Positions 24,244 to 36,857 of a stretch of 64,000 bases of DNA are shown here, one piece after another (within the stretch, counting starts at the first letter, position 1; every line of letters starts with the position of its first letter). Where the stretch lies: assembly GCF_003122385.1 (NCBI RefSeq), contig NZ_CP029255.1, positions 3,596,001 to 3,660,000 of the forward strand. Reading direction: 5' to 3'. This DNA is from Flavobacterium crocinum (GTDB lineage Bacteria > Bacteroidota > Bacteroidia > Flavobacteriales > Flavobacteriaceae). The position numbers and the translations under genes were made by a program. Below the pieces are notes generated by a model. That model saw only the letters and a list, made by a program, of their open reading frames with translations. It made no database searches and was not told where the DNA came from.

Positions 24244-25782
24244 TTACGCTACTTCATTATTATTTTGAAGATAAGTAATAAAAGCCAAAGGAGAGACACC
24301 TGTAATTTTTTTGAATGTAATCGTAAATCGGCTGTGTGATGCAAAACCTGCCTGATCGGCAAGATAACTAATTTTATATTTCAAATAAGCAGGATCATTT
24401 TTTAAACGGTCCACGATATAATCGATTCGTAACTCATTAATATAGCCAGCAAAATCTTTTGATTTATGTTTGTTTATAACATAAGAAAGATAACGATGGT
24501 TGATATTCAATTCTGAAGCGACTGAATTAAGCGACAACGTTTTGTTAAGATAAGAAAGGGAACTTTCAAATTCTTTTATTTTTTCTAAAATAGCTTTTTC
24601 AGTTGCTTCAGGCATGTATTCTTTTGAAGCATCTTTTTTGATTTCTGTCTCATTTTCTTCAATTGTGTCGACTTTGCTGTTTTTTATAAAAGCTTTGATT
24701 TTTTTATGATCCTGTTTTCTTTTATAGGCATAAAGTGCGACGGTAATAAACACTGTAAACAGACAAATACCAATAATAATCAGTTTATGTTTTTGATACT
24801 CAGACTGACTCTGCAAATGACTTTTTCGTATAGATCGGATTAAATCATCAGCAATCACTTTTTTATTGTCATTATCAGCTTTGGTTAGTTTTAAGTTCTT
24901 TTCATTATAAGAAATGTACTTTTTAGAATCGGTCTTTTTGTAAAACTCCATAAAAGAATTGTAAACCTCTTGTTTCAGGGCTGAGTAATCTGATTTTTCT
25001 GCAACCTCTTCGGCTTTTTTATAATAGGATAAAGCCTTCTTGTAATTTTTCATTTCAACATACACATTTGCTATTCCATTATAAATAAACCCCTTTAACG
25101 GATTGTCATAAGACAAAGATTCCTGAAGTTCTTTTTCGGCTTTTTCATAATGATACAAAGCAGAATCTCCCTTTTTCAGTTCCAGATAATTTCGGGCTAT
25201 CAGTTCGTCATTGATCGCAATTTGATAATTTTTATCACTAACAGAAGCCGCTTTTTCAAATAACTGAATTCCTTTTTTAAGATGTAAAATCGCTTTTGAA
25301 TAGTTAGAATCCAGCAACTCATAACAAGCCAGTTCCTGAGATAAATTTCCCTGAAATCGGTACATTTCGCTTTCGTCTTTGATTTTTTTACTGATAGAAA
25401 CGGCTTTATTCAGGTAGATTTTTCCGGTTTCATATATTTCACTTTCACGATAAAGTGAAGCCATGAAGCCATATATTTTAGCCAAAGTCGCAAAGTCTTT
25501 CCCTTTAAGTGCTAAACTATCCGCTTGTTTTAGGGCGTTAATAGCCTCGTTATTAATTCCATACTGATATAAAATATGCGCTTTGAGCATACGGGTTTTT
25601 ATTTTATCCGGATTGTTTTTGGCAAGAGTATATAAATAATCGGTATTGCTTAATGCCTTTTTTGGATTGGAACTCAATAAAACCTGATAGGTTTCAGTAT
25701 AAATACGGTCAAAAGCATCTTGGGAATGACCAAAATAAAAAGAAAGAAAAAAGGTAAGGAGGAGAGTATTTTTGAGTTGCAT
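24244..25782 (-). CDS. TPR-transmembrane-AraC HTH hybrid regulator
   Basis: 512 residues. A signal-like N-terminus (LLLTFFLSFYFGHSQ) is followed by about 300 residues of TPR-like helices (for example LKGFIYNGIANVYVEMKNYKKALSYYKKAEEV). One transmembrane helix (KLIIIGICLFTVFITVALYAYKRK) comes next, then a cytosolic AraC-type DNA-binding domain (LNSVASELNINHRYLSYVINKHK ... ISYLADQAGFASHSRFTITFKKITGVSPLAF). This architecture puts the TPR sensor outside the inner membrane and the HTH inside, as in other Bacteroidota one-protein regulators. It lies 294 bp upstream of, and on the same strand as, the ECF sigma gene. A role in controlling that locus is possible but unproven. Confidence 0.9.
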   Translation of the reverse strand: MQLKNTLLLTFFLSFYFGHSQDAFDRIYTETYQVLLSSNPKKALSNTDYLYTLAKNNPDKIKTRMLKAHILYQYGINNEAINALKQADSLALKGKDFATLAKIYGFMASLYRESEIYETGKIYLNKAVSISKKIKDESEMYRFQGNLSQELACYELLDSNYSKAILHLKKGIQLFEKAASVSDKNYQIAINDELIARNYLELKKGDSALYHYEKAEKELQESLSYDNPLKGFIYNGIANVYVEMKNYKKALSYYKKAEEVAEKSDYSALKQEVYNSFMEFYKKTDSKKYISYNEKNLKLTKADNDNKKVIADDLIRSIRKSHLQSQSEYQKHKLIIIGICLFTVFITVALYAYKRKQDHKKIKAFIKNSKVDTIEENETEIKKDASKEYMPEATEKAILEKIKEFESSLSYLNKTLSLNSVASELNINHRYLSYVINKHKSKDFAGYINELRIDYIVDRLKNDPAYLKYKISYLADQAGFASHSRFTITFKKITGVSPLAFITYLQNNNEVA

Positions 25783-26386
25783 GTGGTATTTAGTGATAAT
25801 TTAGAACGATCAGTTTTATATTAAAAATATATATACTGCTCTTTTAATATAATTTTAGTATAGTAAAAGGGAAATGTAGGTATAATTTTTCAAAATCCGG
25901 TTGGGTATTTGTTTTCTTAACAACATTAAATTTTTATGTGTGATTAGTCTTTAATATTTGCATCAAATAGATGAAGTTTGACCTGTAAGCGGGATTTTAA
26001 ATCTCCAAAACCGGATTGCTTTTTAAAGCGTTTTAATTCAGTTTGTTATGTCTTTTTTGTTGGAGAAATATTTTACTTATTGCGTAATTGGTAAAGAAAT
26101 CTGGCATTTTTCCCTCTTTCAAATGACTAGTTTCGCTTCTAAGTTTTTGAATACAAAAGTTTAATTTTTGTTGTGAAACTTTTTTTGTTGGGCTGCTGGT
26201 TTCGTTAAAGGCTGCACAATTTCCCTCATTTTTTATTTCCTTAAATACATTAAGACAATCCTGTCATGGCAGGCTCTAGAGGGGTCCGGAGTTTATTTGC
26301 TTTTAATGTATAAAATCGATTTGAGTAGAACTTGAGCATCTGAAACCAGCAGTTTAAAAAAAATGATATAAAAGTAATTTACCGTA
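25783..26386. other. 604-bp intergenic stretch without a gene
   Basis: No plausible ORF on either strand. Most of it is A/T-rich. A small G/C-rich island at about 26259-26291 stands out, with the inverted repeat CCTG-tcatgg-CAGG (26260-26273) and the palindromes CTCTAGAG and TCCGGA close together. I cannot assign it to a known RNA or regulatory class. Confidence 0.5.
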
Positions 26387-26842
26387 ATGAAAAGAAAATA
26401 TACAAAATCGGCATTATTGTTAATAGACATACAAAATGATTACTTCTATAAAGGAAAAATGGAATTTAAAGGAAGTTATGAAGTTGTTGCAAGAGCTAAG
26501 AAAATTTTGGATTCTTTTAGAAAGAAAAGAAAAACCGTTATTCATATACAGCATATAGCAGTCAAAAAGAATGCGACCCACTTTATTTCGGGAACTTATG
26601 GGGCAGAAATATATGAAGAAGTAACCCCGAAAGAGAACGAAACGATAATTGTAAAAAATACTCCCAACGGGTTTATTGATACCGGTTTATTTGAATACTT
26701 AAAAAACAATCAGATCGAAAATCTGACCATTGTTGGAATGCTGGACAATATGTCAAATGATCCCACAGTAAGAACCGCAAAAGATTTAGGCTTTAACGTT
26801 CAGTTGTGGGAAGATCAAAAAGCAAATCTTAGCGTTGTTTAA
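26387..26842 (+). CDS. Isochorismatase-fold protein lacking the catalytic cysteine
   Basis: 151 residues of the cysteine-hydrolase (isochorismatase/nicotinamidase) fold. The first catalytic position is kept (Asp14 in ALLLIDIQNDYF), and the conserved lysine is Lys90 in IIVKNTPNGFIDTGL. The segment that normally reads GxxTxxCVxxTxRxA is GMLDNMSNDPTVRTA, so the nucleophile position is Ser123, not Cys. The protein ends soon after LWEDQKANLSVV, shorter than the usual ~180 or more residues. It is therefore either a non-catalytic descendant or a changed-mechanism enzyme. It stands alone, with a minus-strand gene on its right. Confidence 0.85.
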   Translation: MKRKYTKSALLLIDIQNDYFYKGKMEFKGSYEVVARAKKILDSFRKKRKTVIHIQHIAVKKNATHFISGTYGAEIYEEVTPKENETIIVKNTPNGFIDTGLFEYLKNNQIENLTIVGMLDNMSNDPTVRTAKDLGFNVQLWEDQKANLSVV

Positions 26843-26890
26843 ATAACGCCGGATATTGGAACAAACTTTTTTTGAAAGGTAAAAGTGCTG

Positions 26891-27079
26891 TTATTCAGTT
26901 TCAAAATGATCCAATTCATAAGTATCTGATTCAGGATTGGTTTCTTCAATTTTATCATCCCAGTGTCCCCAGTCTCCCTGATACGATTTTACAAATATAA
27001 GTTCATCATTTTCTCCTTTGTGTACGCGTGTTGTACATAAAAAAGTTTTAGCAGTTTTAATTGTTGCAGGAGTTTCCAT
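26891..27079 (-). CDS. Small acidic hypothetical protein
   Basis: 62 residues, acidic in the C-terminal half (GDWGHWDDKIEETNPESDTYELDHFETE) and with no membrane segment. I do not recognise a family. Support comes from a start ATG 29 bp downstream of a good TAnnTTTG box, protein-like composition, and a position in an otherwise empty 500-bp gap. A longer antisense reading of the same DNA in another frame looks like noise. Confidence 0.5.
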   Translation of the reverse strand: METPATIKTAKTFLCTTRVHKGENDELIFVKSYQGDWGHWDDKIEETNPESDTYELDHFETE

Positions 27080-27108
27080 GGTCGTAAAGTTATTAAGTTA
27101 AGTAATTT

Positions 27109-27116
27109 CAAAAGTA
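27109..27116 (-). promoter_or_regulatory. Possible -7 box for the small acidic protein gene
   Basis: Minus-strand TACTTTTG fits TAnnTTTG and sits 29 bp before the ATG at 27079. No -33 TTG with ideal spacing was seen. Confidence 0.4.
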
Positions 27117-27311
27117 AAGAAGGACTAATCAAACCAGTTATATAATAAAAGCAAAATGTTGTTGAATTATCATGTAACCGGTTTATTATCAATTTATTTG
27201 TGAAGTTGTGTTTACTGTTTTTTTGACTTTATACTGCTTTCAAAATGAAAATTTTATGTGTGATATGGATATAAAAACTAAGTTTTAGTTAAAAGAAATA
27301 TAAAAATGATG

Positions 27312-27319
27312 TACTTTTG
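27312..27319 (+). promoter_or_regulatory. Possible -7 box of the copper-associated locus
   Basis: TACTTTTG, a perfect TAnnTTTG match, begins 31 bp upstream of the TTG start of the first small Cys-motif protein. The upstream -33 element is poor (TTT/TTA). Confidence 0.45.
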
Positions 27320-27342
27320 CCCTCAAAATAATTAACAAGCAG

Positions 27343-27714
27343 TTGAAAAGGTTAATCATCATAGTACTTTCCATTTTAATTTTGTCGCCATCATTTGGCA
27401 GCTTGTTCGTTTATGCTTCCTTCAAAATCAATCAGGAAGAAATTGCAAAAACGATTTGTGTACAACGCAAACAAGTCTTTAATAACTGTAACGGTCGATG
27501 CGAACTTCAAAAAAGCATCAAAAAATATTCTGATAACGAAAAGAAAATGCAGGACAGCCTAAAAGAAAAATTAGAGCTTGTTTATGTGCAGAATACTGCT
27601 GAAGTTGTTATTAATGCACTTCCAGTTATCGAATCAAAAGAAAATACTTCTGTTTTGTTTGAAAAGAAACCAATCCGGGCTTCTAATCTTACTTTTCATC
27701 CTCCGCTCGTATAA
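27343..27714 (+). CDS. Small membrane/secreted protein with CX(n)CxGxC motif, first paralogue
   Basis: 123 residues starting at a TTG (MKRLIIIVLSILILSPSFGSLFVYASF, an N-terminal hydrophobic anchor or signal). The key segment is FKINQEEIAKTICVQRKQVFNNCNGRCELQK: three cysteines in the pattern C-x9-C-x3-C with a conserved NCNGRCELxK. The same pattern occurs in the protein at 30929-31366, although the two C-termini differ. Both end in a proline motif (HPPLV here). Three clustered cysteines outside the cytoplasm suggest metal binding. No characterised family is known to me. It heads the copper-associated gene run. Confidence 0.75.
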   Translation: MKRLIIIVLSILILSPSFGSLFVYASFKINQEEIAKTICVQRKQVFNNCNGRCELQKSIKKYSDNEKKMQDSLKEKLELVYVQNTAEVVINALPVIESKENTSVLFEKKPIRASNLTFHPPLV

Positions 27715-28019
27715 TTCGGGATCACTTTTCTGTTTTTAAATCTGATGGCATTGTTCTTTTTTTGAATGATGCAAATAGGGTGTGATATTTTTATATTACC
27801 TAAATATTTTGAATATCCCGAAAATTACCTTCAGACAATTGGATAAGGTTTCTTATCAGCACTTTTTTCATACAGAAAAGTTGATCTTACTGCTGTAATT
27901 GAGATGCTGTAAACACATTTTCAATTTAAAACACCATTAAAATTTCACGGCATTTGAACTTTCCTGAACGGATTGTTTTGTGCTGCATTTTAAAACGTTT
28001 TTTCTAACATTCATTACAA
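27715..28019. other. 305-bp gap, no gene seen
   Basis: A/T-rich, no coding pattern. TTCGGGAT near its start is complemented by ATCCCGAA about 100 bp on, probably by chance. A further promoter for the lipoprotein at 28020 may lie here but I cannot point to a good box. Confidence 0.4.
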
Positions 28020-28940
28020 ATGAAATCTTTTAAAATTTTAGCTGTTGCACTATTGGGTGTAATTGCTTCCTGTACAATTGACAAGACAGATTATGAAGCT
28101 GAGATTGGTTCTCAGGTTCCGGAATATTACGAGTTCAAAGAAGCCGTTTCCTTAACCAGCGGCAACTATAAAATTAGCATCGAAGCTTTAAACGGAACAT
28201 TCTATAAAGGCTATAATGAACTTCATTTTAAAGTGATCAATACACAAAACAATCAAAGTGTAAATGCCTCTGAAGTTACTTTTTTGCCAATATTAAGCAC
28301 TAACGGAAATACAAGTTCTTGTCCGCATGAATACAATGTTTCCTATGATGCGACTAATAAATATTTCACCGGCTACAGTGTTTTTACCAGCGAAACAGCA
28401 GTTTCAAACAGCTGGAAATTATATATAAGTTTTAAAGTAGACAATCAGAAATATGAAATCAATAAAGATATTTTGGTTGAAAAACAGAGCAATAAAAACC
28501 TAAATATGACCACTTTTACAGGAAAAGATAACGAACAATATGTAATTGCGTTAATTTCTCCGCAGAAACCAAAAGTGGCCGAAAATCCATTGGTCGCAGG
28601 TATTTACAAATACAATAAACCAACCACTCCGGCAGGAACTTTTCCGGATCCTGCTCAGTTTTCGTATTCAGAAGTAAGTGGTTACACTTTAAAATTGGAT
28701 CCAAGAATGCCGGAACCTTCAATGGGAAATCATTCTTCGCCAAACAATCAGGATTTGACACAGCAAAATGATGGTTTGTATCATGGTGTTGTCAATTATA
28801 CCATGACAGGAAACTGGACTTTGAATTTAATCCTAATGAATCAAAACGGATTGATTTTAAAGGGAACTGTTGTTCCAACCGATTTTACGCCCGGAGTAGA
28901 AGGTGTGAAAAGTGAATTATTTATTGATACTTTATTCTAA
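28020..28940 (+). CDS. Lipoprotein with YtkA-like segments in the copper-associated locus
   Basis: 306 residues; signal peptide with lipobox VIASC (Cys18). The body is beta-rich and can be read as two Ig-like halves. The second contains LDPRMPEPSMGNHSSPNNQDL, then GLYHGVVNYTMTGNWTLNLIL. The 'MPxMxxH ... G.Y.g.v.f.MtG.W.l.v' pattern is that of YtkA-like/FixH-type periplasmic proteins associated with copper handling. The methionines and histidines there could bind copper. It ends 4 bp before the TonB receptor start, so the two are surely cotranscribed. Confidence 0.75.
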   Translation: MKSFKILAVALLGVIASCTIDKTDYEAEIGSQVPEYYEFKEAVSLTSGNYKISIEALNGTFYKGYNELHFKVINTQNNQSVNASEVTFLPILSTNGNTSSCPHEYNVSYDATNKYFTGYSVFTSETAVSNSWKLYISFKVDNQKYEINKDILVEKQSNKNLNMTTFTGKDNEQYVIALISPQKPKVAENPLVAGIYKYNKPTTPAGTFPDPAQFSYSEVSGYTLKLDPRMPEPSMGNHSSPNNQDLTQQNDGLYHGVVNYTMTGNWTLNLILMNQNGLILKGTVVPTDFTPGVEGVKSELFIDTLF

Positions 28941-28944
28941 CAGC

Positions 28945-30924
28945 ATGAAATATATCATAATGTTTCTTTTTTTAGGAATGTCGATAATGGCTCAAAATCA
29001 TCATGCACATCACGACAGCATTAAAAATTTAGAAGAAGTTCAGGTAAAAAACGCAACCAAGAAGAAAATTGAAACCCAAATGAAAATGGCGGTTTCAGTT
29101 GATGAATTTTTGTCGTCGGCAGATAATATCAGTTTTATTAAACGCGGTGCGTATGCATGGGAACCGCTGTTGAACAATATGAGTACAGAACGTTCTACAG
29201 TGACCATCGACGGAATGCACATTTTTGGCGCTTGTACCGATAAAATGGATCCGATTACATCTTATGTAGAGAGTAATAATCTTGCGGCAATTGATATAAA
29301 ATCGGGGCAGGAAGGAAGTTTACACGGTTCTACGATTGCCGGAAGTATCGATTTAAAAAGAAAAAGCACAGCGTTTGGTCTGGCAAAAAAATGGAACGGC
29401 GCTTACCAAAGCGGTTTCGAATTCAATAATAAACAATTTTTCAATCTTGGAAACGTAGCTTATTCTGGTGAAAAATTTGTTGCTGAGGGAAGTATTTCGT
29501 ACCGAAAAGCAGCTGATTATTTTGATGGAAATGATAATGAGGTAAAACATTCGCAATATAAAAAGTTCAATACATCATTAGGGTTTGCTTATAAAACAAG
29601 TGATTTATCTGCTGTAAGAGTAGACGCGATTTTTGATATGGCAAAAGATGTAGGTTATCCGGCTTTGCCAATGGATTTATCGCTTTCACGTGCCTTAATT
29701 ACTTCAGCTTCGTACAAACAATTATTCGAAGACGGATTGGTAAAAGTGATTGATTCTAAGATTTATTTCAATGCAATCGAACATTATATGGACGATACGA
29801 CGCGACCAGAAAATCTGGTTCACATGGATATGCCGGGCTGGAGCACCACTTACGGTCTGGTTTCGAAAGCCAATTTGAAAAAGAATAGTTATTCCTCAGA
29901 AATACAATTGAATGCTTATGATAATTTATCGATTGCAGAAATGAGAATGTATCCGCAGGACAGAAACGAAAGAACCATGTTTGCTTACAGCTGGCCGTGG
30001 GTTACGACTCGTTTTGCGGGACTTTCGATGAATAACTCCTGGGAGCTTTCAGAGATAAGTCAGGTCAATGTAGGCGGTTCTTTGGGAATCAATTACAATT
30101 ATTCCAAATATGTAGAATTCAACTGGATTTTTCATCCCGGAGCATCTCAGGAAAAAACGAGATTTCTGCCAAGCTTACACGCAGGTTATAATCTAAATAT
30201 CGATCAGTTTAATTTTTCTGTCGGAACAGGTTACGGGCACAGAGCGCCTTCTGTTTCTGAAGGTTACGGTTATTACATTTACAATAGTTTTGACCGTTAC
30301 GATTATATCGGAAATCCTGATTTGAAAAATGAAATTTCGTATGAAGGAAATGCATCGGCAGGTTTTAAAAACGAAAGATTAAGCATTCAGGGTAAACTGA
30401 ATTATTTCTATATCGAAAACTATATTATTGGTAGAATCCTAAGTATGGGAAGTCCGATGAATTATCAGTCGGTTGGTGTAAAAGGATATACATCATTAGA
30501 TTATGCAACACTTTTAAATATGTCGATGAATGTGAGTTACGATATTTTAGAGCATTTGCATTGGAATGGTACTGTAACATACGCTCGCGGAATGGATAAT
30601 AACGGAGGAAATCTGCCTTTTATTCGTCCGTTGAGTTATTTGACATCCCTTCATTTCATGCACAAAAATTTTGGAATCCAGACTTCTGTAAATGGCGATT
30701 TCGAACAGCTTAATTATAGTCCGGAATACGGAGAAGACCAAACACCGGCGTATGTAATCTGGAATCTTTCAGCCAATTATTCTTTTAAAATCAATAAAGT
30801 AAAAGCTGTGATTCAGGCCGGAGCCGAGAATTTATTAAATGAATATTACAGCACTTATGCAGACTGGGGAAATATTCCAAGAATGGGTCGTAATATTTTT
30901 ACTTCTTTAAAATTGAATTTCTAA
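28945..30924 (+). CDS. TonB-dependent receptor of the copper-receptor (OprC-like) type
   Basis: 659 residues from ATG 28945 (MKYIIMFLFLGMSIMAQ signal); the in-frame ATG at 28912 lies inside the previous gene. Right after the signal is a His cluster (NHHAHHD, about residues 18-24). The plug carries VTIDGMHIFGACTDKMDPITSYVE, close to the GACxxRMDPPTSY signature of TonB-dependent copper receptors, with Cys97 and Met101 as candidate copper ligands. A barrel of normal size ends with NIFTSLKLNF. There is no STN or carboxypeptidase-like domain, so it is not a SusC. Its neighbours (MbnP/MbnH-like pair, YtkA-like lipoprotein) support copper or a copper complex as the ligand. Confidence 0.88.
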   Translation: MKYIIMFLFLGMSIMAQNHHAHHDSIKNLEEVQVKNATKKKIETQMKMAVSVDEFLSSADNISFIKRGAYAWEPLLNNMSTERSTVTIDGMHIFGACTDKMDPITSYVESNNLAAIDIKSGQEGSLHGSTIAGSIDLKRKSTAFGLAKKWNGAYQSGFEFNNKQFFNLGNVAYSGEKFVAEGSISYRKAADYFDGNDNEVKHSQYKKFNTSLGFAYKTSDLSAVRVDAIFDMAKDVGYPALPMDLSLSRALITSASYKQLFEDGLVKVIDSKIYFNAIEHYMDDTTRPENLVHMDMPGWSTTYGLVSKANLKKNSYSSEIQLNAYDNLSIAEMRMYPQDRNERTMFAYSWPWVTTRFAGLSMNNSWELSEISQVNVGGSLGINYNYSKYVEFNWIFHPGASQEKTRFLPSLHAGYNLNIDQFNFSVGTGYGHRAPSVSEGYGYYIYNSFDRYDYIGNPDLKNEISYEGNASAGFKNERLSIQGKLNYFYIENYIIGRILSMGSPMNYQSVGVKGYTSLDYATLLNMSMNVSYDILEHLHWNGTVTYARGMDNNGGNLPFIRPLSYLTSLHFMHKNFGIQTSVNGDFEQLNYSPEYGEDQTPAYVIWNLSANYSFKINKVKAVIQAGAENLLNEYYSTYADWGNIPRMGRNIFTSLKLNF

Positions 30925-30928
30925 GAAA

Positions 30929-31366
30929 ATGAAAAAGGTTTTTAGTTTCACAATGATAATGCTGCTACTGCTGGTTTCTTTCCAGCAGGCATTGATTATT
31001 GTACACTTTAAACTCAATCAGAAAAGTATAGAAAAAGAATTTTGCGTCAATAAGGCAAAACCCGAATTACAATGTCACGGGAAATGTCATTTAAAGAAAG
31101 AACTTGAAAAATCGGATCCTAACAGTGATTTAGAATTAACGAGTATCAGTAAAAACATTGACATTATTTTGAATTCGGAAATTGAATTTACAATCAATAT
31201 CGTAAAAGAAATAAATTCCAAAAAAGTATTGATTTATAAAGAAACAGGGCAAACAGAACCTTGTATCGAAATTTTTGTACCGCCGCCTATTTTGTTGATT
31301 GATTCCCCTCAATTAAAATTATTTACAGTTAGAATGGAAAAAGATGTACCAAAATCATCTTTTTAG
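30929..31366 (+). CDS. Small membrane/secreted protein with CX(n)CxGxC motif, second paralogue
   Basis: 145 residues, starting 4 bp after the receptor stop. An N-terminal hydrophobic segment (VFSFTMIMLLLLVSFQQALIIV) is followed by HFKLNQKSIEKEFCVNKAKPELQCHGKCHLKKELEK, which matches the core of the protein at 27343: same FKxNQ entry, same C-x9-C-x3-C spacing and CxGxCxLxK ending. Here two histidines flank the last cysteines (CHGKCH), which strengthens the case for metal binding. A proline patch (FVPPPILLID) follows near the C-terminus. Function unknown; copper transfer is my inference from location. Confidence 0.78.
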   Translation: MKKVFSFTMIMLLLLVSFQQALIIVHFKLNQKSIEKEFCVNKAKPELQCHGKCHLKKELEKSDPNSDLELTSISKNIDIILNSEIEFTINIVKEINSKKVLIYKETGQTEPCIEIFVPPPILLIDSPQLKLFTVRMEKDVPKSSF

Positions 31367-31400
31367 GCATAATTAATTACAAAAATTTAAATATCACAAA

Positions 31401-32276
31401 ATGCAAAATTTGAAAAAATACCTTTTATTATCAATTACCGCTTTGGCTTTTGTATCATGTTCAGACAATGATGACAATCCGGTTGCGAACAATGTAACGT
31501 TGGAATTCAATAATACATTCAAAAATACCACGATTGTTTTAGGAAATGCGGCTTCGACTTCGGCTACGACTAATACTTCGGCTGCAGGACAAGTACACCA
31601 TTTTTCGGAACTGAAATATGTAATCAGTAATATTCGTTTGGTAAAAGACAATGGAGATGAAGTACCATACAATGTAAACGATTTGGACAAAGGCGCAACA
31701 GTAATCGACCAGGCTAAAACAGCTTCTTTGAGTTATGTTTTAAGCAATGTGCCTTCTGCAACTTACAAGCAGATTAAATTTGGTTTAGGAATCAAAGCGG
31801 AGCAAAATACTTTAGATCAGGTTAGATTTCCTAATTTCTATGCTTTAGCTGGTGCAAATGATACTGCCATGATGTGGGAATGGGGAAGCGGTTACCGTTT
31901 TACCAAAATTGAAGGTTTTTATGATACTGATAATAAAACCATGTCAATCCATACAGGAAGTACAGTTGAAGGGACTAAAGATGTTCCGTCAAGTTATACG
32001 CAGGGAGTAAACGCTTATAGAGATATTACTTTAAACCTGACTACAAATGCTGTTGTTGGAAGTAAAGCTCCAAAAATCAAAATTCAGGCAGATTTTGACA
32101 AAATGTTAAGCGGAAAATCAAATACCATTACGTTATCAACAGGAACAGGAATGAACGATAATGCAACTCCAAACGTTCATACGGCTGCTCAAATGGTAAA
32201 ATTTGTAGATAATTTGGGAGGAAACGGATCAAGCGATATTACAGGAATGTTTTCTGTGACTGCTGTAGAAAACTAA
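31401..32276 (+). CDS. MbnP-family copper-associated lipoprotein
   Basis: 291 residues with lipobox FVSC (Cys20). Family features: VTLEFNNTF opening, HHFSELKYVISNIRLV, and the signature AMMWEWGSGYRFTKIEGFY with Trp159 and Trp161, then the end GMFSV. In characterised MbnP proteins a tryptophan is oxidised to kynurenine by the di-heme enzyme MbnH to create a copper site. The MbnH-like gene is the next one here, and the TonB receptor and Cys-motif proteins lie immediately upstream. Which of the two tryptophans would be the target cannot be told from this sequence alone. Confidence 0.88.
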   Translation: MQNLKKYLLLSITALAFVSCSDNDDNPVANNVTLEFNNTFKNTTIVLGNAASTSATTNTSAAGQVHHFSELKYVISNIRLVKDNGDEVPYNVNDLDKGATVIDQAKTASLSYVLSNVPSATYKQIKFGLGIKAEQNTLDQVRFPNFYALAGANDTAMMWEWGSGYRFTKIEGFYDTDNKTMSIHTGSTVEGTKDVPSSYTQGVNAYRDITLNLTTNAVVGSKAPKIKIQADFDKMLSGKSNTITLSTGTGMNDNATPNVHTAAQMVKFVDNLGGNGSSDITGMFSVTAVEN

Positions 32277-32280
32277 AAAA

Positions 32281-32395
32281 TGGCACGCAGATAAAACGGA
32301 TTTACTTCGTAAAGCCACGGATAAATACAGATTATTTTAAAATCCGTTCAAATCCGCGTTTTCGCGATAGCGAATCCGTTTAATCCGTGTCCTAT
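32281..32395. repeat. Dispersed inverted-repeat element, copy 2
   Basis: Sits between the MbnP-like and di-heme genes. It shares words with the element at 12419-12531 (tcgcgatagcgaatc, aatccgcgt, atccgtgtcc, aaaacggattta) in related order. It can fold into nested A/T-rich hairpins and so may act on the downstream gene's mRNA. Confidence 0.7.
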
Positions 32396-32438
32396 TTACA
32401 GAGCTGTTTAAACGGTTCAATTTTAAAATTCATTTAAA

Positions 32439-33455
32439 ATGAAAAAAATACTAGGTTTCGTAATAGCAATATTGTTTCTGACTTCCTGTAATAGCGAAGA
32501 TTCGGAAATGCTGGCTATTGAAAATCCTGAAATTGATTTGAATATTCCGTCTGGTTTTCCTGAACTAAACGCTTTTGTAAGTCAGAACAAACCGACTCAA
32601 TACGGAGTGGAATTAGGAGGAAAACTGTTTTCGGATAAACGATTCAGTGCAGACAATACGATTTCGTGTTCCAGCTGTCATATTCAGGAAAATGCTTTTA
32701 CAGATCAGAAAATACAGGCAGTCGGAATTGAAGGCAGAATCGGACTTCGAAATACACCGTCGATTCAGAATTTGGCTTTTATGAAGTTTTACAATTGGGA
32801 TGGAAGCAAATTACAGCTTGAAAATCAGCCTTTAGTACCCATTATCACGCATGAAGAAATGGATTCCTCGATTTTAGAAGTAATGGGTAAAATTAAGGAT
32901 GATGCTGTTTATAAAGATTTGTTCAGAAAAGCTTTTGGAGATGAAACCATTACACCTGAAAGAATCTACAAAAGTATTGCACAGTTTGAATATACGCTGA
33001 TTTCTGCCAACAGTAAATACGATAAAGTAAAACGTAAAGAAGTTTCTTTTTCAGAAAGTGAATTAAAAGGCTATCAAACTTTTCAGCAGAAATGTGCAAG
33101 CTGTCATGCAGGAGAATTGTTTACCGATCAGAGTTTTAGAAATATTGGTTTTCCCCTAAATACAGATACCAACGAAGCCGGACGCGCCAGAGTAACAGGA
33201 ATTGTTGCCGATTTTATGAGTTTCCGAGTTCCAACTTTAAGAAACATTGAATACACAGCTCCGTATGGAAGTTTTGGACAGTTTCCAACTTTGAAATCTG
33301 TTTTGGATTATTTTGATAATGGCGTTTTAGACGCTGATAATTTGGATCCGATTTTGAAAGAGAATGGAAAAAGAATTCCGTTGACAGAAGAGGAAAAAGT
33401 AAATCTGATTGCTTTTATGAAGACCTTGAGCGATATACAATTTGTAAAGAAATAA
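32439..33455 (+). CDS. Di-heme cytochrome c peroxidase / MbnH-like lipoprotein
   Basis: 338 residues with lipobox LTSC (Cys17). Two c-type heme sites are intact: CSSCH (Cys77, Cys80, His81) and CASCH (Cys219, Cys222, His223). The surrounding sequence (GKLFSDKRFSADNTISCSSCHIQENAFTD; FRVPTLRNIEYTAPYGSFGQF) is that of the bacterial CcpA/MauG superfamily. Next to an MbnP-family gene, the better reading is MbnH, which oxidises tryptophan in MbnP, rather than a detoxifying peroxidase. It is exported and probably membrane-tethered. A strong terminator follows 30 bp downstream, ending the copper locus. Confidence 0.88.
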   Translation: MKKILGFVIAILFLTSCNSEDSEMLAIENPEIDLNIPSGFPELNAFVSQNKPTQYGVELGGKLFSDKRFSADNTISCSSCHIQENAFTDQKIQAVGIEGRIGLRNTPSIQNLAFMKFYNWDGSKLQLENQPLVPIITHEEMDSSILEVMGKIKDDAVYKDLFRKAFGDETITPERIYKSIAQFEYTLISANSKYDKVKRKEVSFSESELKGYQTFQQKCASCHAGELFTDQSFRNIGFPLNTDTNEAGRARVTGIVADFMSFRVPTLRNIEYTAPYGSFGQFPTLKSVLDYFDNGVLDADNLDPILKENGKRIPLTEEEKVNLIAFMKTLSDIQFVKK

Positions 33456-33484
33456 AAAAACATATTTCTAAAATGAAATTGACA

Positions 33485-33518
33485 AAAGCTAAACTGGAAA
33501 GTTTAGCTTTTTTTTTGC
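33485..33518 (+). terminator. Strong intrinsic terminator of the copper locus
   Basis: Perfect 11-bp stem AAAGCTAAACT (33485-33495) / AGTTTAGCTTT (33500-33510) with a 4-nt loop, followed by an uninterrupted T-run to 33516. It lies 30 bp after the di-heme enzyme stop. Confidence 0.9.
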
Positions 33519-33579
33519 CTTTTAGATTAAAAGTTTGTTGCAGATTATAATTTGAAACCTAATTGTTACCATAAAAAGA

Positions 33580-33608
33580 TTGGGATTTGCAGATGCATTA
33601 TAAATTTG
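33580..33608 (+). promoter_or_regulatory. Promoter of the DUF1254 gene
   Basis: TTG at 33580-33582 and TAAATTTG at 33601-33608 are 18 bp apart, fitting the Bacteroidota -33/-7 pattern. The start codon is 40 bp further at 33649. Confidence 0.65.
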
Positions 33609-33648
33609 AGTATCGTTTTATAAGTATAATCATCTAATAATCAATTTT

Positions 33649-35133
33649 ATGAAAAAAATAGTTTTATACCATGTTTTATTATTGTTCATAATTAGTGGAT
33701 GCAAAAAAGATTCTGAAACAAAAGAAAATACGAACACGGAAACTGTTTCTAATTCTGAACAATATGAATTTGTTGGTGGTTATCCGACAGAAGCTACAAT
33801 CAAAAAAGCCTATGATGATGCTGATCTTACGCGTGCCATACAAGCTTATAAATTTTTCTACCCAACTGTTTCAGGAGAAGGATTAGTTAAAGGAAATGAT
33901 AGTATTAAGATTAAGCCCAACAGCTCATTTGGTACTTTGGATACCAAACCAGGACAAATTGGATTTACCTTGAATTCAGACACACCTTACGGACCAATTC
34001 CAATTGATTTGTCAAAGGGACCAATGGTAATTGATATTCCGAAAGGTCCGCTGATTGTTGTTGCCATGGATGTTAACCAGCGATGGGTAGCAGATATGGG
34101 GATTCCAGGACCTGATGCAGGAAATGGAGGAAAACATTTGCTCCTTTTACCAGATTATAAAGGCGTTGTACCTGCTTCCGGATATCATGTCTGGAAATCA
34201 TCTTCAAATAACTTAACTGTTGGAATTCGTTCACTTCCAGTTGGCGGTGATGTTAAAGCGGCTATGGATCGAATTAAGACGGTAAAAGTATATCCATTAA
34301 ATAAACCTGCAGACTGGAAAGAACCAAACTGGCTTGAATTAACCGATAAGCCTCAAAATACAACACCTGTTGCGTGGGAGAACAATTTCAAATATTGGGA
34401 AAATCTAAACGATGTCATTCAGCGTGAACCAGTTTTTGAAGGCTATAGAAATTATTACGGAGAACTTGCCGTGTTAGGAATAAAAAAAGGACAGCCTTTT
34501 AAACCTGATACAAGAATGAAAGCAATTCTTGAAAAAGCAGCAAAAATTGCCAATGCTCAAATGAGAGTACAATCTTTTGCCGATCGCCGTCCAGACCGAA
34601 TTGTATGGAAAGACCGTCAATGGGAATGGGTAGCACTTCGATTTGAGGATGGAGATTTTAACACTACTGACTATGTAGATCTCGACGGTCGTGAAACTTG
34701 GTTTTATCAGGCAATTGGGGCTTCTCCTTCAATGTTTAGAAGAAAAGAAGGTTTTGGATCCTTATACTGGCTTGGACTTAAAGATAATACAGGTAAATAT
34801 GTAGATGGAGGGAAAAACTATAAGTTGACTATTCCAACACCAGTTCCTGCCAAATTATTCTGGTCTATTACTATCTATGATGCAGAAACCCGCAGTCAAG
34901 TTCTTACAGATCAAAACAAAGCCGCTTTACGTTCACTATTTGAATTAAAAGATAAAATAGGTGGAAAAAGCATTGATTTATTTTTTGGTCCAAAAGCTCC
35001 TGCAGGTAAAGAAGGGCAATGGATAAAAACACTGCCAAACAAAGGCTGGTTTGCTTATATCCGTATTTATGGACCAGAGGTTGCTGCTTTTAACGGAACC
35101 TGGAAACCAGGTGATTTTGAAGAAGTAAAATAA
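33649..35133 (+). CDS. DUF1254/DUF1214-domain lipoprotein
   Basis: 494 residues; signal peptide with lipobox IISGC (Cys18 region). The N-terminal half (YPTEATIKKAYDDADLTRAIQAYKFFYPTVSGEG) is DUF1254 and the C-terminal part (FWSITIYDAETRSQVLTDQNKAALRSLFELK ... WFAYIRIYGPEVAAFNGTWKPGDFEEV) is DUF1214, in the usual order. The biochemical role of these domains is not established. It has its own promoter. The sulfatase gene follows 104 bp later on the same strand, and this pairing suggests a shared substrate or stress response, which is inference. Confidence 0.9.
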   Translation: MKKIVLYHVLLLFIISGCKKDSETKENTNTETVSNSEQYEFVGGYPTEATIKKAYDDADLTRAIQAYKFFYPTVSGEGLVKGNDSIKIKPNSSFGTLDTKPGQIGFTLNSDTPYGPIPIDLSKGPMVIDIPKGPLIVVAMDVNQRWVADMGIPGPDAGNGGKHLLLLPDYKGVVPASGYHVWKSSSNNLTVGIRSLPVGGDVKAAMDRIKTVKVYPLNKPADWKEPNWLELTDKPQNTTPVAWENNFKYWENLNDVIQREPVFEGYRNYYGELAVLGIKKGQPFKPDTRMKAILEKAAKIANAQMRVQSFADRRPDRIVWKDRQWEWVALRFEDGDFNTTDYVDLDGRETWFYQAIGASPSMFRRKEGFGSLYWLGLKDNTGKYVDGGKNYKLTIPTPVPAKLFWSITIYDAETRSQVLTDQNKAALRSLFELKDKIGGKSIDLFFGPKAPAGKEGQWIKTLPNKGWFAYIRIYGPEVAAFNGTWKPGDFEEVK

Positions 35134-35237
35134 TTTGTTTATTCTTTACGACGCACAAAAAAATCCCCATCTATACGCCTGCAAAGTTTTATATGCCATT
35201 TTTCAACTCATTTTTTAATCAATTAAATTTAAAAATC

Positions 35238-36857
35238 ATGAAAAAAAATGTCTTACAATTAATTTTTGCGTGTTTGTTTTGCCTGAGTTTTATTGGCTTA
35301 ATGAATGCCCAAACAAAGAAGAAACCAAATATCATTATGGTAATCTCAGATGATACAGGATGGGGAGATTTAGGCGTATATGGCGGTGGCGTAGGTCGTG
35401 GAATGCCAACTCCAAACTTAGATCGAATGGCCAAGGAAGGAATGCAGTTCTGGTCTTTTTATGGACAGCCAAGCTGTACGCCAGGAAGAGCCGCCATGAT
35501 TACAGGAAGAATTCCGAATCGAAGCGGAATGACAACAGTTGCTTTTCAAGGGCAAGGTGGCGGACTTCCAGCTGCTGAATGGACTTTGGCTTCTGTATTA
35601 AAAAAAGCAAATTACAAAACCTATTTTTCAGGAAAATGGCATTTAGGAGAAGCAGATTACGCCATGCCGATTGCGCACGGTTTTGATAAAATGCAGAATG
35701 TTGTTCTCTATCATTTAAATGCTTACACTTATTGTTTTCCTTCGTGGAATCCAGATATGGCTCCAGAAATATCTGCTTTTATCAAGAAATCAACAAAAGG
35801 GATTTTAGAAGGAGAAGCTGGGAAACCAGCACGTGACACAGGTCCAGTTACAGAAGAAAATATTGCGGAGCTGGATATTAATATGGTGGATAATAATTTA
35901 AAACAGCTTGATGAATATGGTAAATCAAAAGATCCGTTTTTTATGTGCATCAATTTTGCTAAAAACCATCAGCCAAATTTACCATCCAAACAATTTGCAG
36001 GGAAATCACCAGCAAAAAGTAAATATGGTGATGCCGTTGTAGAAATGGATTATAATGTAGGCCGCATTATGGATAAAATTCGCTCACTTGGAATTGCAGA
36101 TAATACAATTGTGATTTATACAGTTGATAATGGAGCTTGGCAAGATGTGCATCCAGATGCGGGATATACCCCTTTTAGAGGTTCTAAAGGAACGGATAGA
36201 GAAGGTGGCAGCCGAGTTCCTGCTATTGCTTGGTGGCCGGGACAAATTGAAGCAGGAAGCGTGAGCCATGATATTGTAGGTGGTTTGGATTTGATGGCAA
36301 CATTTGCAGCTCTTGCAGGTGTAGAATTGCCTAAAAATGATAGAGAAGGAAAACCTATGGTTTTTGACAGCTACGATATGTCGAATGTTTTATTCAAAAA
36401 AGGAAAACCACTTCGTGACAGATGGTTTTATTTTACAGAAAACGAACTATCTCCTGGGGCAGTACGCATAGGAAAATGGAAAGCTGTATTTAATACAAGA
36501 GGTGATAATGGAGCGCAGGCAGGAAGCGATACACCAGGACAACAATTAGGTTGGAGAGGCGATCAGACTTATATAGCAACTGTTCCTGCGGTTTATGATT
36601 TATGGCAGGATCCACAGGAACGTTATGATCTTTTCATGAATAGTTTTACAGAGAAAACGTGGACGATGGTTGTTTTCGATCAAGTTATTATGGAACTTAT
36701 GAAAACTTATGCAGCAACTCCTCCAAGACCACAGCAAAGTGGTTCTTATGGCGGACCAATGGAAATTGGAAGATATAGAACTATCGAGCAGGCGAAACAA
36801 TTACTAAACAGTAAAGAATTGACACTGCCTCCTTTGAGTGTCGATCCTAAACAATAG
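35238..36857 (+). CDS. Arylsulfatase (formylglycine-dependent), exported
   Basis: 539 residues from ATG 35238 (MKKNVLQLIFACLFCLSFIGLMNAQ signal); the upstream in-frame ATG at 35193 has no signal character. Metal-binding DD in MVISDDTGWGDLG (38-39). The activation motif is SCTPGRAAMITGR, that is C-T-P-G-R with Cys80 as the residue converted to formylglycine, so a Cys-type sulfatase. GKWHLGEADY and DNGAW also match family motifs. A maturase (FGE or anSME) is required but is not in the window. The protein hydrolyses sulfate esters in the periplasm or outside; the substrate is unknown. Confidence 0.93.
   Translation: MKKNVLQLIFACLFCLSFIGLMNAQTKKKPNIIMVISDDTGWGDLGVYGGGVGRGMPTPNLDRMAKEGMQFWSFYGQPSCTPGRAAMITGRIPNRSGMTTVAFQGQGGGLPAAEWTLASVLKKANYKTYFSGKWHLGEADYAMPIAHGFDKMQNVVLYHLNAYTYCFPSWNPDMAPEISAFIKKSTKGILEGEAGKPARDTGPVTEENIAELDINMVDNNLKQLDEYGKSKDPFFMCINFAKNHQPNLPSKQFAGKSPAKSKYGDAVVEMDYNVGRIMDKIRSLGIADNTIVIYTVDNGAWQDVHPDAGYTPFRGSKGTDREGGSRVPAIAWWPGQIEAGSVSHDIVGGLDLMATFAALAGVELPKNDREGKPMVFDSYDMSNVLFKKGKPLRDRWFYFTENELSPGAVRIGKWKAVFNTRGDNGAQAGSDTPGQQLGWRGDQTYIATVPAVYDLWQDPQERYDLFMNSFTEKTWTMVVFDQVIMELMKTYAATPPRPQQSGSYGGPMEIGRYRTIEQAKQLLNSKELTLPPLSVDPKQ

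Follow-up and report, generated by a model that had tools for sequence, protein, structure and literature searches.

What is the purpose of six genes that stand together on one strand of Flavobacterium crocinum DNA and combine a TonB receptor, a YtkA-domain lipoprotein, an MbnP lipoprotein and a di-heme protein with two small cysteine-containing proteins (Cys1 and Cys2)? The locus occupies positions 27343..33455 of the 64,000-nucleotide stretch that we analysed, hereafter the window (assembly GCF_003122385.1, contig NZ_CP029255.1, positions 3,596,001 to 3,660,000), and an earlier note on this DNA had read it as a copper-acquisition or copper-sensing pathway. We consider it fairly probable that these genes form a copper-import operon, in which a leader open reading frame (ORF), Cys1, would act together with the receptor, the YtkA lipoprotein, and MbnP and its di-heme partner. 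Judging from sequence, the six genes are one conserved Bacteroidota operon built from known parts; no description of this combination was found in the open-licence literature searched. Checked against the ORF list, all six lie on the + strand, as first described, and their coordinates bear out the short distances reported between YtkA and TonB (4 bp), TonB and Cys2 (4 bp) and Cys2 and MbnP (34 bp). The two remaining gaps are longer, at 305 bp (Cys1 to YtkA) and 162 bp (MbnP to the di-heme gene). Three of the proteins match Pfam families above the cut-offs (YtkA, MbnP and CCP_MauG), while the receptor and both Cys proteins match no Pfam family at E<=0.01.

The gene order recurs in many other genomes, which were compared in two sets. 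The family sample contained 149 Flavobacteriaceae genomes, with roughly one drawn for each genus and that of the window included; MbnP is present in 71 of them, and of 79 MbnP places 77 and the window were examined (78 loci, with the contig-edge fragment G124:C48 left out and L088 cut by a contig end). The second, hereafter the 80-locus set, comprises the best 80 of 169 confirmed MbnP relatives obtained by a pattern scan with one genome per species. It overlaps the family sample (L302 and L098 are represented by the same MbnP), and its loci are not independent, since Flavobacterium accounts for 37 of the 80 titles. ORFs in the compared loci were called mechanically (longest, greedy), and gaps and start codons are therefore approximate. 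The order Cys-YtkA-TonB-(Cys)-MbnP-MbnH is kept in 78 of the 80 loci; in the remaining two a contig ends inside or just before YtkA and the first Cys gene is cut off, and split genes occur in two of the 78 complete loci (TonB and MbnP in L290, MbnH in L250). This set spans Flavobacterium, Chryseobacterium, Myroides, Sphingobacterium, Chitinophagaceae and others, and the closest titled relative among the 169 is Flavobacterium phragmitis, with 96% MbnP identity. Of the 80 loci, 41 have a second Cys gene that separates TonB from MbnP, and 11 have one ahead of the first Cys gene. Within the family sample, Cys, YtkA, TonB, MbnP and MbnH follow each other in eight genomes, the window's own included, and among these the Cys gene between TonB and MbnP is found only in the window. 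This window type is monophyletic with a support of 1.0 in each of the trees of TonB (35 sequences, the L130 receptor with its in-frame stop left out), MbnP and MbnH (78 each). In a phylum-wide draw of 296 genomes the receptor was detected at E<=1e-80 in 12, eight of which, again including the window's genome, exceed 1100 bits like the receptors of the window type. The gene set is far beyond chance association.

The case for copper begins with the receptor (28945..30924, the mechanical ORF beginning at 28912). OprC was the sole match in a PDB search, and the window's C97-x3-M101 and H280-x-M282 place C97, M101, H280 and M282 on C143, M147, H323 and M325 of OprC, its copper ligands (PMC8610252). 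The plug motif GACTDKMDPITSY claimed earlier for this receptor is present in the window, and GACTDKM and HYMDD occur together in 79 of 81 receptor pieces of the 80-locus set. A cluster of His residues near the N terminus (HHAHH), also singled out at that stage, is likewise present but absent from seven aligned relatives; found in the window only among eight aligned receptors, it was therefore dropped as a defining feature. The family sample holds 36 copies of the receptor in 35 genomes, and in all 36 the Cys and YtkA genes are adjacent to it or within two genes. Among the 28 copies of this trio without MbnP, 15 lie within ~8 kb of nos (N2O-reductase) genes, and five of these 15 also near cbb3 oxidase genes; no nos or cbb3 genes were found near MbnP in the 78 loci examined. 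Two annotated MbnP-less loci yielded NCBIfam names for NosZ (928 bits, cut-off 625), NosD (422 and 447, cut-off 300), CcoN (666, cut-off 583) and CcoG (426, cut-off 317), and the window's genome itself carries a second, MbnP-less trio divergent from nosZ (L120). Copper import by the locus is likely, as far as homology and gene neighbourhood indicate.

Two lipoproteins could receive the metal. The YtkA-domain lipoprotein (28020..28940), a candidate Cu(I) chaperone, matches PF13115 with 31.3 bits (cut-off 25.9), and its lipid site Cys18 as well as M230, M235, H238 and M262 are invariant in all 36 aligned YtkA lipoproteins, the window's included. A fixed segment, DPRMPEP(S/N)MGNHSSPN, is carried by the window-type YtkA proteins (8/8); the looser M-M-H pattern occurs in 80/80 titled pieces and is matched by 3/28 MbnP-less YtkA. 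That the protein encoded at 31401..32276 belongs to MbnP, as the earlier note had proposed, is well supported. It matches PF20243 with 120.4 bits (cut-off 27), and a Foldseek search with its AlphaFold2 (AF2) model (pLDDT 79) gave six hits below 1e-3, all of them to chains of 7l6g, the MbnP of Methylosinus. The window protein alone found nothing in the PDB at E<=0.1; a profile of 27 MbnP proteins aligns the MxWxW and His region with 7l6g at a weak E of 0.004. In this alignment M157, W159 and W161 (M157-x-W159-x-W161) and H184 fall on what we take to be the copper-binding residues and the kynurenine site of 7l6g.

A profile test had been suggested for deciding the membership of both MbnP and its di-heme partner. 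Both proteins score below the NCBIfam cut-offs (61.8 bits against 140 for TIGR04052 and 200.4 against 362.85 for TIGR04039), although Pfam, fold and motif all place the first of them in MbnP. These cut-offs do not decide membership, because other flavobacterial members miss them too: three of four further MbnP proteins fall below the TIGR04052 cut-off and one has no match, and none of six other MbnH-type proteins reaches that of TIGR04039. They were dropped as a means of decision.

The Cys proteins, which the earlier note did not know as characterised, have the anatomy of the CutF/CruR leader class. Cys1 (27343..27714, TTG start) has 123 aa with C39, C49 and C53 and, two residues before the C terminus, Pro120-Pro121 (...TFHPPLV). 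Across 53 aligned Cys proteins only C39, C49, G51, C53, L55, P120 and P121 are invariant, and shared sequence is otherwise low. The Pro-Pro pair lies at most four residues from the end in 56 of the 62 Cys ORFs of our first set, in 46 of 57 in a further set and in 111 of 134 in the 80-locus set (slightly overlapping with the others), compared with 16 of 1932 control ORFs from the same loci, or 8 of the 581 with 80-200 aa. Pro-Pro follows the last Cys at a distance of 64-71 in each of the 62 ORFs, and of 67-71 in 55. The family is present in 91 of the 149 genomes. The 119 genes examined (62 and 57, with the fragments G015:C96, G082:C53 and G089:C115 left out) are followed by a CxxxM receptor (36), another ORF >600 aa (13), YtkA (23), MbnP (21) or one outer-membrane-type protein (14), with Cys (1), something else (9) and no gene in the examined DNA (2) making up the remainder. 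Seven of the 13 large non-CxxxM ORFs match a TonB receptor by BLAST and six are without a match to the receptor example; Pfam naming of downstream neighbours covered one example each of the receptor and the outer-membrane type. Four Cys ORFs occur in the window's genome: besides Cys1 and Cys2, one precedes the nos-linked trio (L120) and another, at L178 (G000:C1:3865500-3872500), a 710-aa ORF without BLAST match to the receptor example.

With respect to the rules for CutF-like leaders in PMC9973294, Cys1 is shorter than 150 aa, has Pro-Pro within its last 15 residues and is followed by a same-strand gene within 1000 nt; those rules also include an N-terminal signal peptide, where Cys1 shows an N-terminal helix in the AF2 model only. 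The CutF-like list of that article counts Bacteroidota members, and the class is thus already known in this phylum; in its accessible part we found no mention of this operon. For leaders ending in RAPP or RGPP, PMC12992588 reports absence from some groups, e.g., Bacteroidota, where copper-related genes are concerned, and occurrence across Gram-negative bacteria for TonB-related ones. By analogy, the small Cys ORFs probably serve as leaders through which copper is sensed during their own synthesis, and for Cys1 we regard a leader role as likely.

At 27312..27319 (+ strand), 31 nt before the Cys1 start codon, lies a promoter-like element, TACTTTTG. It matches TAnnTTTG, which we take to be the consensus of the Bacteroidota-type -7 promoter. 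In 52 of 78 loci of the 80-locus set such an element lies no more than 80 nt ahead of the Cys gene preceding YtkA, and where there are two Cys genes it precedes the first in 8 of 11 loci, whereas before later genes, as judged from mechanical starts, it was found for YtkA in 2/79, TonB in 0/81, the Cys gene before MbnP in 1/41, MbnP in 0/81 and MbnH in 1/81; 11 of 78 loci have it anywhere in the Cys-to-YtkA gap. This gap (27715..28019, 305 nt) contains a possible stem at ~27947-27986, which pairs in 73.7% of cells as opposed to 29-42% when slid. RNAalifold returned no conserved pairs for the whole gap (23 loci) and four pairs only for its 3' end (28 loci), none of them from this stem. The folding energy of gaps after Cys genes differs weakly from that of 120 random control gaps (mean z -2.26 for 111 of the 119, 35-350 nt, vs -1.52; p = 0.001). 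An excess of C over G, as in Rho sites, is a similarly weak signal (61 of 78 Cys-YtkA gaps vs 36 of 67 MbnP-MbnH gaps; 47 C vs 44 G in the window).

Several observations weigh against reading the locus as a leader-controlled copper-import operon. The promoter element is missing in 26 of the 78 loci, covariation in the stem is within the range of shuffled alignments (124 of 500 reach it), and a long gap is not a trait of the Cys family, because its median is 86 over the 119 genes vs 260 to YtkA in the window type of the 80-locus set. No match to DUF2946, the Pfam family of CruR, was obtained at E<=1 among the 53 Cys proteins, so homology to CruR/CutF is not demonstrated and only the layout is common; none of the 53 exceeds any Pfam or NCBIfam cut-off either, the best weak match being one member to a CzcI-like model (E 0.0077). 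Their C-terminal motif is xPP and not RAPP. Cys2 (30929..31366), the second member of the leader family and directly 5' of MbnP, has a tail of 25 residues past Pro-Pro, beyond the last 15 of the CutF-like rules, and tails of more than four residues occur in 13 of 41 Cys proteins before MbnP and in 8 of 78 before YtkA. These long tails speak against a strict arrest role of Cys2, whose window copy may have lost the arrest end and be decaying. The receptor falls far short of the TonB-copper model TIGR01778 (79.9 bits, cut-off 472.45) and scores higher with the heme/transferrin-receptor model TIGR01786 (95.5 bits, cut-off 324, not reached), and 13 of the 28 MbnP-less trios have neither nos nor cbb3 genes in the DNA examined. 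The Cys proteins might instead be ordinary periplasmic or membrane-anchored copper chaperones that take the metal onward from YtkA or MbnP, with Pro-Pro serving for docking or stability. An N-terminal helix followed by three conserved cysteines would suit this role, as would two Cys copies in many operons and the outer-membrane metal-transport genes directly following in 107 of 119 cases. We nevertheless think it unlikely: the AF2 model consists of the N-terminal helix and a second helix after the cysteines, with no folded domain (pTM 0.29), Pro-Pro is fixed relative to both the stop codon and the cysteines with Leu55 as the sole invariant residue in between, and it is the Cys gene that stands first and bears the promoter element. 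Detoxification, with MbnP and YtkA sequestering excess copper and the receptor serving another metal complex, would agree with the observation that CutF-like leaders often head copper-efflux genes (PMC9973294). The OprC copper site is complete in the receptor, though, and in the annotated neighbourhood (24244-36857) Pfam named neither an efflux ATPase nor an RND pump nor a multicopper oxidase. The linkage of the trio to nos genes also counts against this possibility, because N2O reductase needs copper, and we hold it to be highly improbable.

Whether the di-heme protein (32439..33455) acts as an MbnH is a more evenly balanced question. In methanotrophs, MbnH oxidises a tryptophan of MbnP to kynurenine and thereby makes a copper site. 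A working MbnH in the window would do the same to Trp159 of MbnP, with another residue, perhaps Met260, in place of the axial tyrosine; we give this a little less than an even chance. The MxWEW motif is kept in 81/81 MbnP pieces of the 80-locus set, and a di-heme gene follows MbnP in 78/78 flavobacterial MbnP loci (with a split di-heme gene and an intervening spurious ORF on the opposite strand in L039). The window protein matches CCP_MauG (166 bits, cut-off 25.6) and has CSSCH at 77, CASCH at 219 and the bridging Trp120; both CxxCH motifs and this Trp are kept in 8/8 members of the window clade. Met at position 260 (window numbering) occurs in 8/8 of the clade and 0/70 others and may be a new heme ligand. 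Against this stands the replacement of residues typical of the family: all eight carry PYGSFG (from 275 in the window) where PYMHDG is found in 69 of the 70 other flavobacterial MbnH proteins (PFMHDG in one) and in 6e1c, the MbnH of Methylosinus. The axial position, which we take to match MauG residue 294 and its presumed heme ligand Tyr294 (the offset was derived from our own alignment), is Phe in six and Leu in two of the clade (Phe292 in the window) but Tyr in 70/70 others and in Methylosinus MbnH, and the catalysis of MauG requires its Tyr ligand. The 80-locus set agrees, with PYG(S/N)(F/Y)G in 80 of 81 di-heme pieces, MHDG in none, and Phe, Leu or Met at the axial position in 80 of 81 (a quick pattern missed or misread this position in five pieces, four of which are YF or YL by eye and one an N-terminal fragment). 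As the alignments have it, the Trp target of MbnP is kept while the second heme pocket of the enzyme is changed. Since these changes are specific to the clade, kynurenine chemistry should not be assumed. The MbnH identity stated earlier is thus borne out by the two CxxCH motifs, CCP_MauG and the bridging Trp but not by the axial Tyr and PYMHDG, and because Phe292 and PYGSFG replace these two we call the protein MbnH-like, although it may still work like MbnH.

Taken as a copper-import operon, the locus could operate as follows. At low copper, a ribosome translating Cys1 would pause at the Pro-Pro near the C-terminal end of the growing leader, and the genes that follow would be expressed; copper bound to the cysteines of Cys1 would end the pause and lower expression as in CruR, although this sign is a guess and CutF responds in the opposite direction. 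The TonB receptor would carry copper over the outer membrane to the YtkA lipoprotein, and MbnP, matured by the di-heme protein, would store Cu(I) or hand it over, either at the outer membrane or in the periplasm, with copper enzymes (cbb3 oxidase, for example) as possible recipients. Cys2 could be a second leader that tunes MbnP and MbnH separately. The route from the locus to cbb3 oxidase or N2O reductase is one we infer. Of the earlier proposal of a copper-acquisition pathway, the pairing of an MbnP-family protein with an OprC-type receptor holds, whereas the Cys proteins and the di-heme partner need re-reading. A more far-reaching version joins these points: the Cys ORFs would be a Bacteroidota family of copper-sensing arrest peptides (C-x8/9-C-x-G-x-C, 67-71 residues, xPP, stop) heading outer-membrane copper-import genes across Flavobacteriaceae, two of them would act in series here, one on the receptor and one on MbnP/MbnH, and the di-heme enzyme, with a changed axial ligand (perhaps Met260) and its target Trp kept, would form kynurenine or another Trp product by different heme chemistry. 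In its entirety this remains tentative and is somewhat doubtful. The locus would offer a concrete copper-uptake route for Bacteroidota, consisting of receptor, lipoprotein and MbnP-type copper protein, and, if the leader role is true, would link the sensing of copper by a nascent chain to its import in this phylum. Its di-heme protein also presents a naturally altered MauG/MbnH heme site that can be compared with 70 Tyr-retaining relatives, which bears on the need for the axial tyrosine.

The other MbnP loci differ in arrangement. Besides the eight of the window type, the 78 loci comprise 47 upstream of SUF genes, 20 with Cys-MbnP-MbnH and a ~330-aa protein, and three others. In the 47 loci (L051-L088, L093, L095, L102, L103, L106, L107, L032, L046 and L048) MbnP and MbnH stand directly upstream of a SUF iron-sulphur operon, with SufA-type and SufBD confirmed by Pfam on one example each. 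Their MbnP has no WxW in 34 of 47 cases and WxW without the preceding Met in nine, yet their MbnH keep the axial Tyr; the enzyme is apparently retained and its known target lost. In the 20 loci (L031, L033-L045, L047, L049, L050, L089, L090 and L100) the conserved ~330-aa protein follows MbnH and carries CDxCxC near its N terminus in 20/20; one example belonged to no Pfam family. Around the window's locus, a DUF1254/DUF1214 protein and a sulfatase follow on the same strand (33649-36857), neither of them a fixed neighbour in the other window-type loci, and a TPR protein with a C-terminal AraC-type DNA-binding domain lies upstream on the opposite strand (24244-25782), with no sign of operon membership. 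A methanobactin gene is not among the annotated neighbours (24244-36857), no genome-wide search having been made. Among the literature matches listed, no title or abstract dealt with an MbnP/MbnH pair in Bacteroidota.

Compared with known systems, the distal genes resemble the methanotroph MbnP/MbnH pair (7l6g, 6e1c; PMC3621798) in the MbnP fold, MxWxW, the His and the adjacent di-heme partner, which in the window is without the axial Tyr and MHDG. OprC/NosA of Pseudomonas (PMC8610252) shares the plug CxxxM and barrel HxM residue for residue, and relatives of the window receptor without MbnP are found near nos genes; the window receptor differs in its distance from the TIGR01778 cut-off and in its company of a YtkA lipoprotein and a leader ORF. 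CutF of Rhodobacter, through which copper raises the downstream gene (PMC9973294), is likewise small, with an N-terminal helix, CxxxC and a Pro-rich C-terminal end, and lies 5' of a copper gene; the Cys family has an extra upstream Cys (C-x8/9-C-x-G-x-C) and heads an import operon. CruR (DUF2946) of Bordetella (PMC9426467) has CXXC and RAPP in place of CxxxC and xPP, and no Pfam similarity between it and the Cys proteins was found. The action of CruR depends on both the Cys-to-Pro-Pro spacing and the terminal Pro-Pro, and with copper the pause is relieved and less receptor is made (PMC9426467); its arrest was demonstrated in vitro in later work (PMC12992588). Like Cys1, CruR heads a TonB copper-receptor operon, with a fixed Cys-to-Pro-Pro spacing, Pro-Pro near the stop codon and a long gap after the leader, 162 nt in CruR and 305 in the window.

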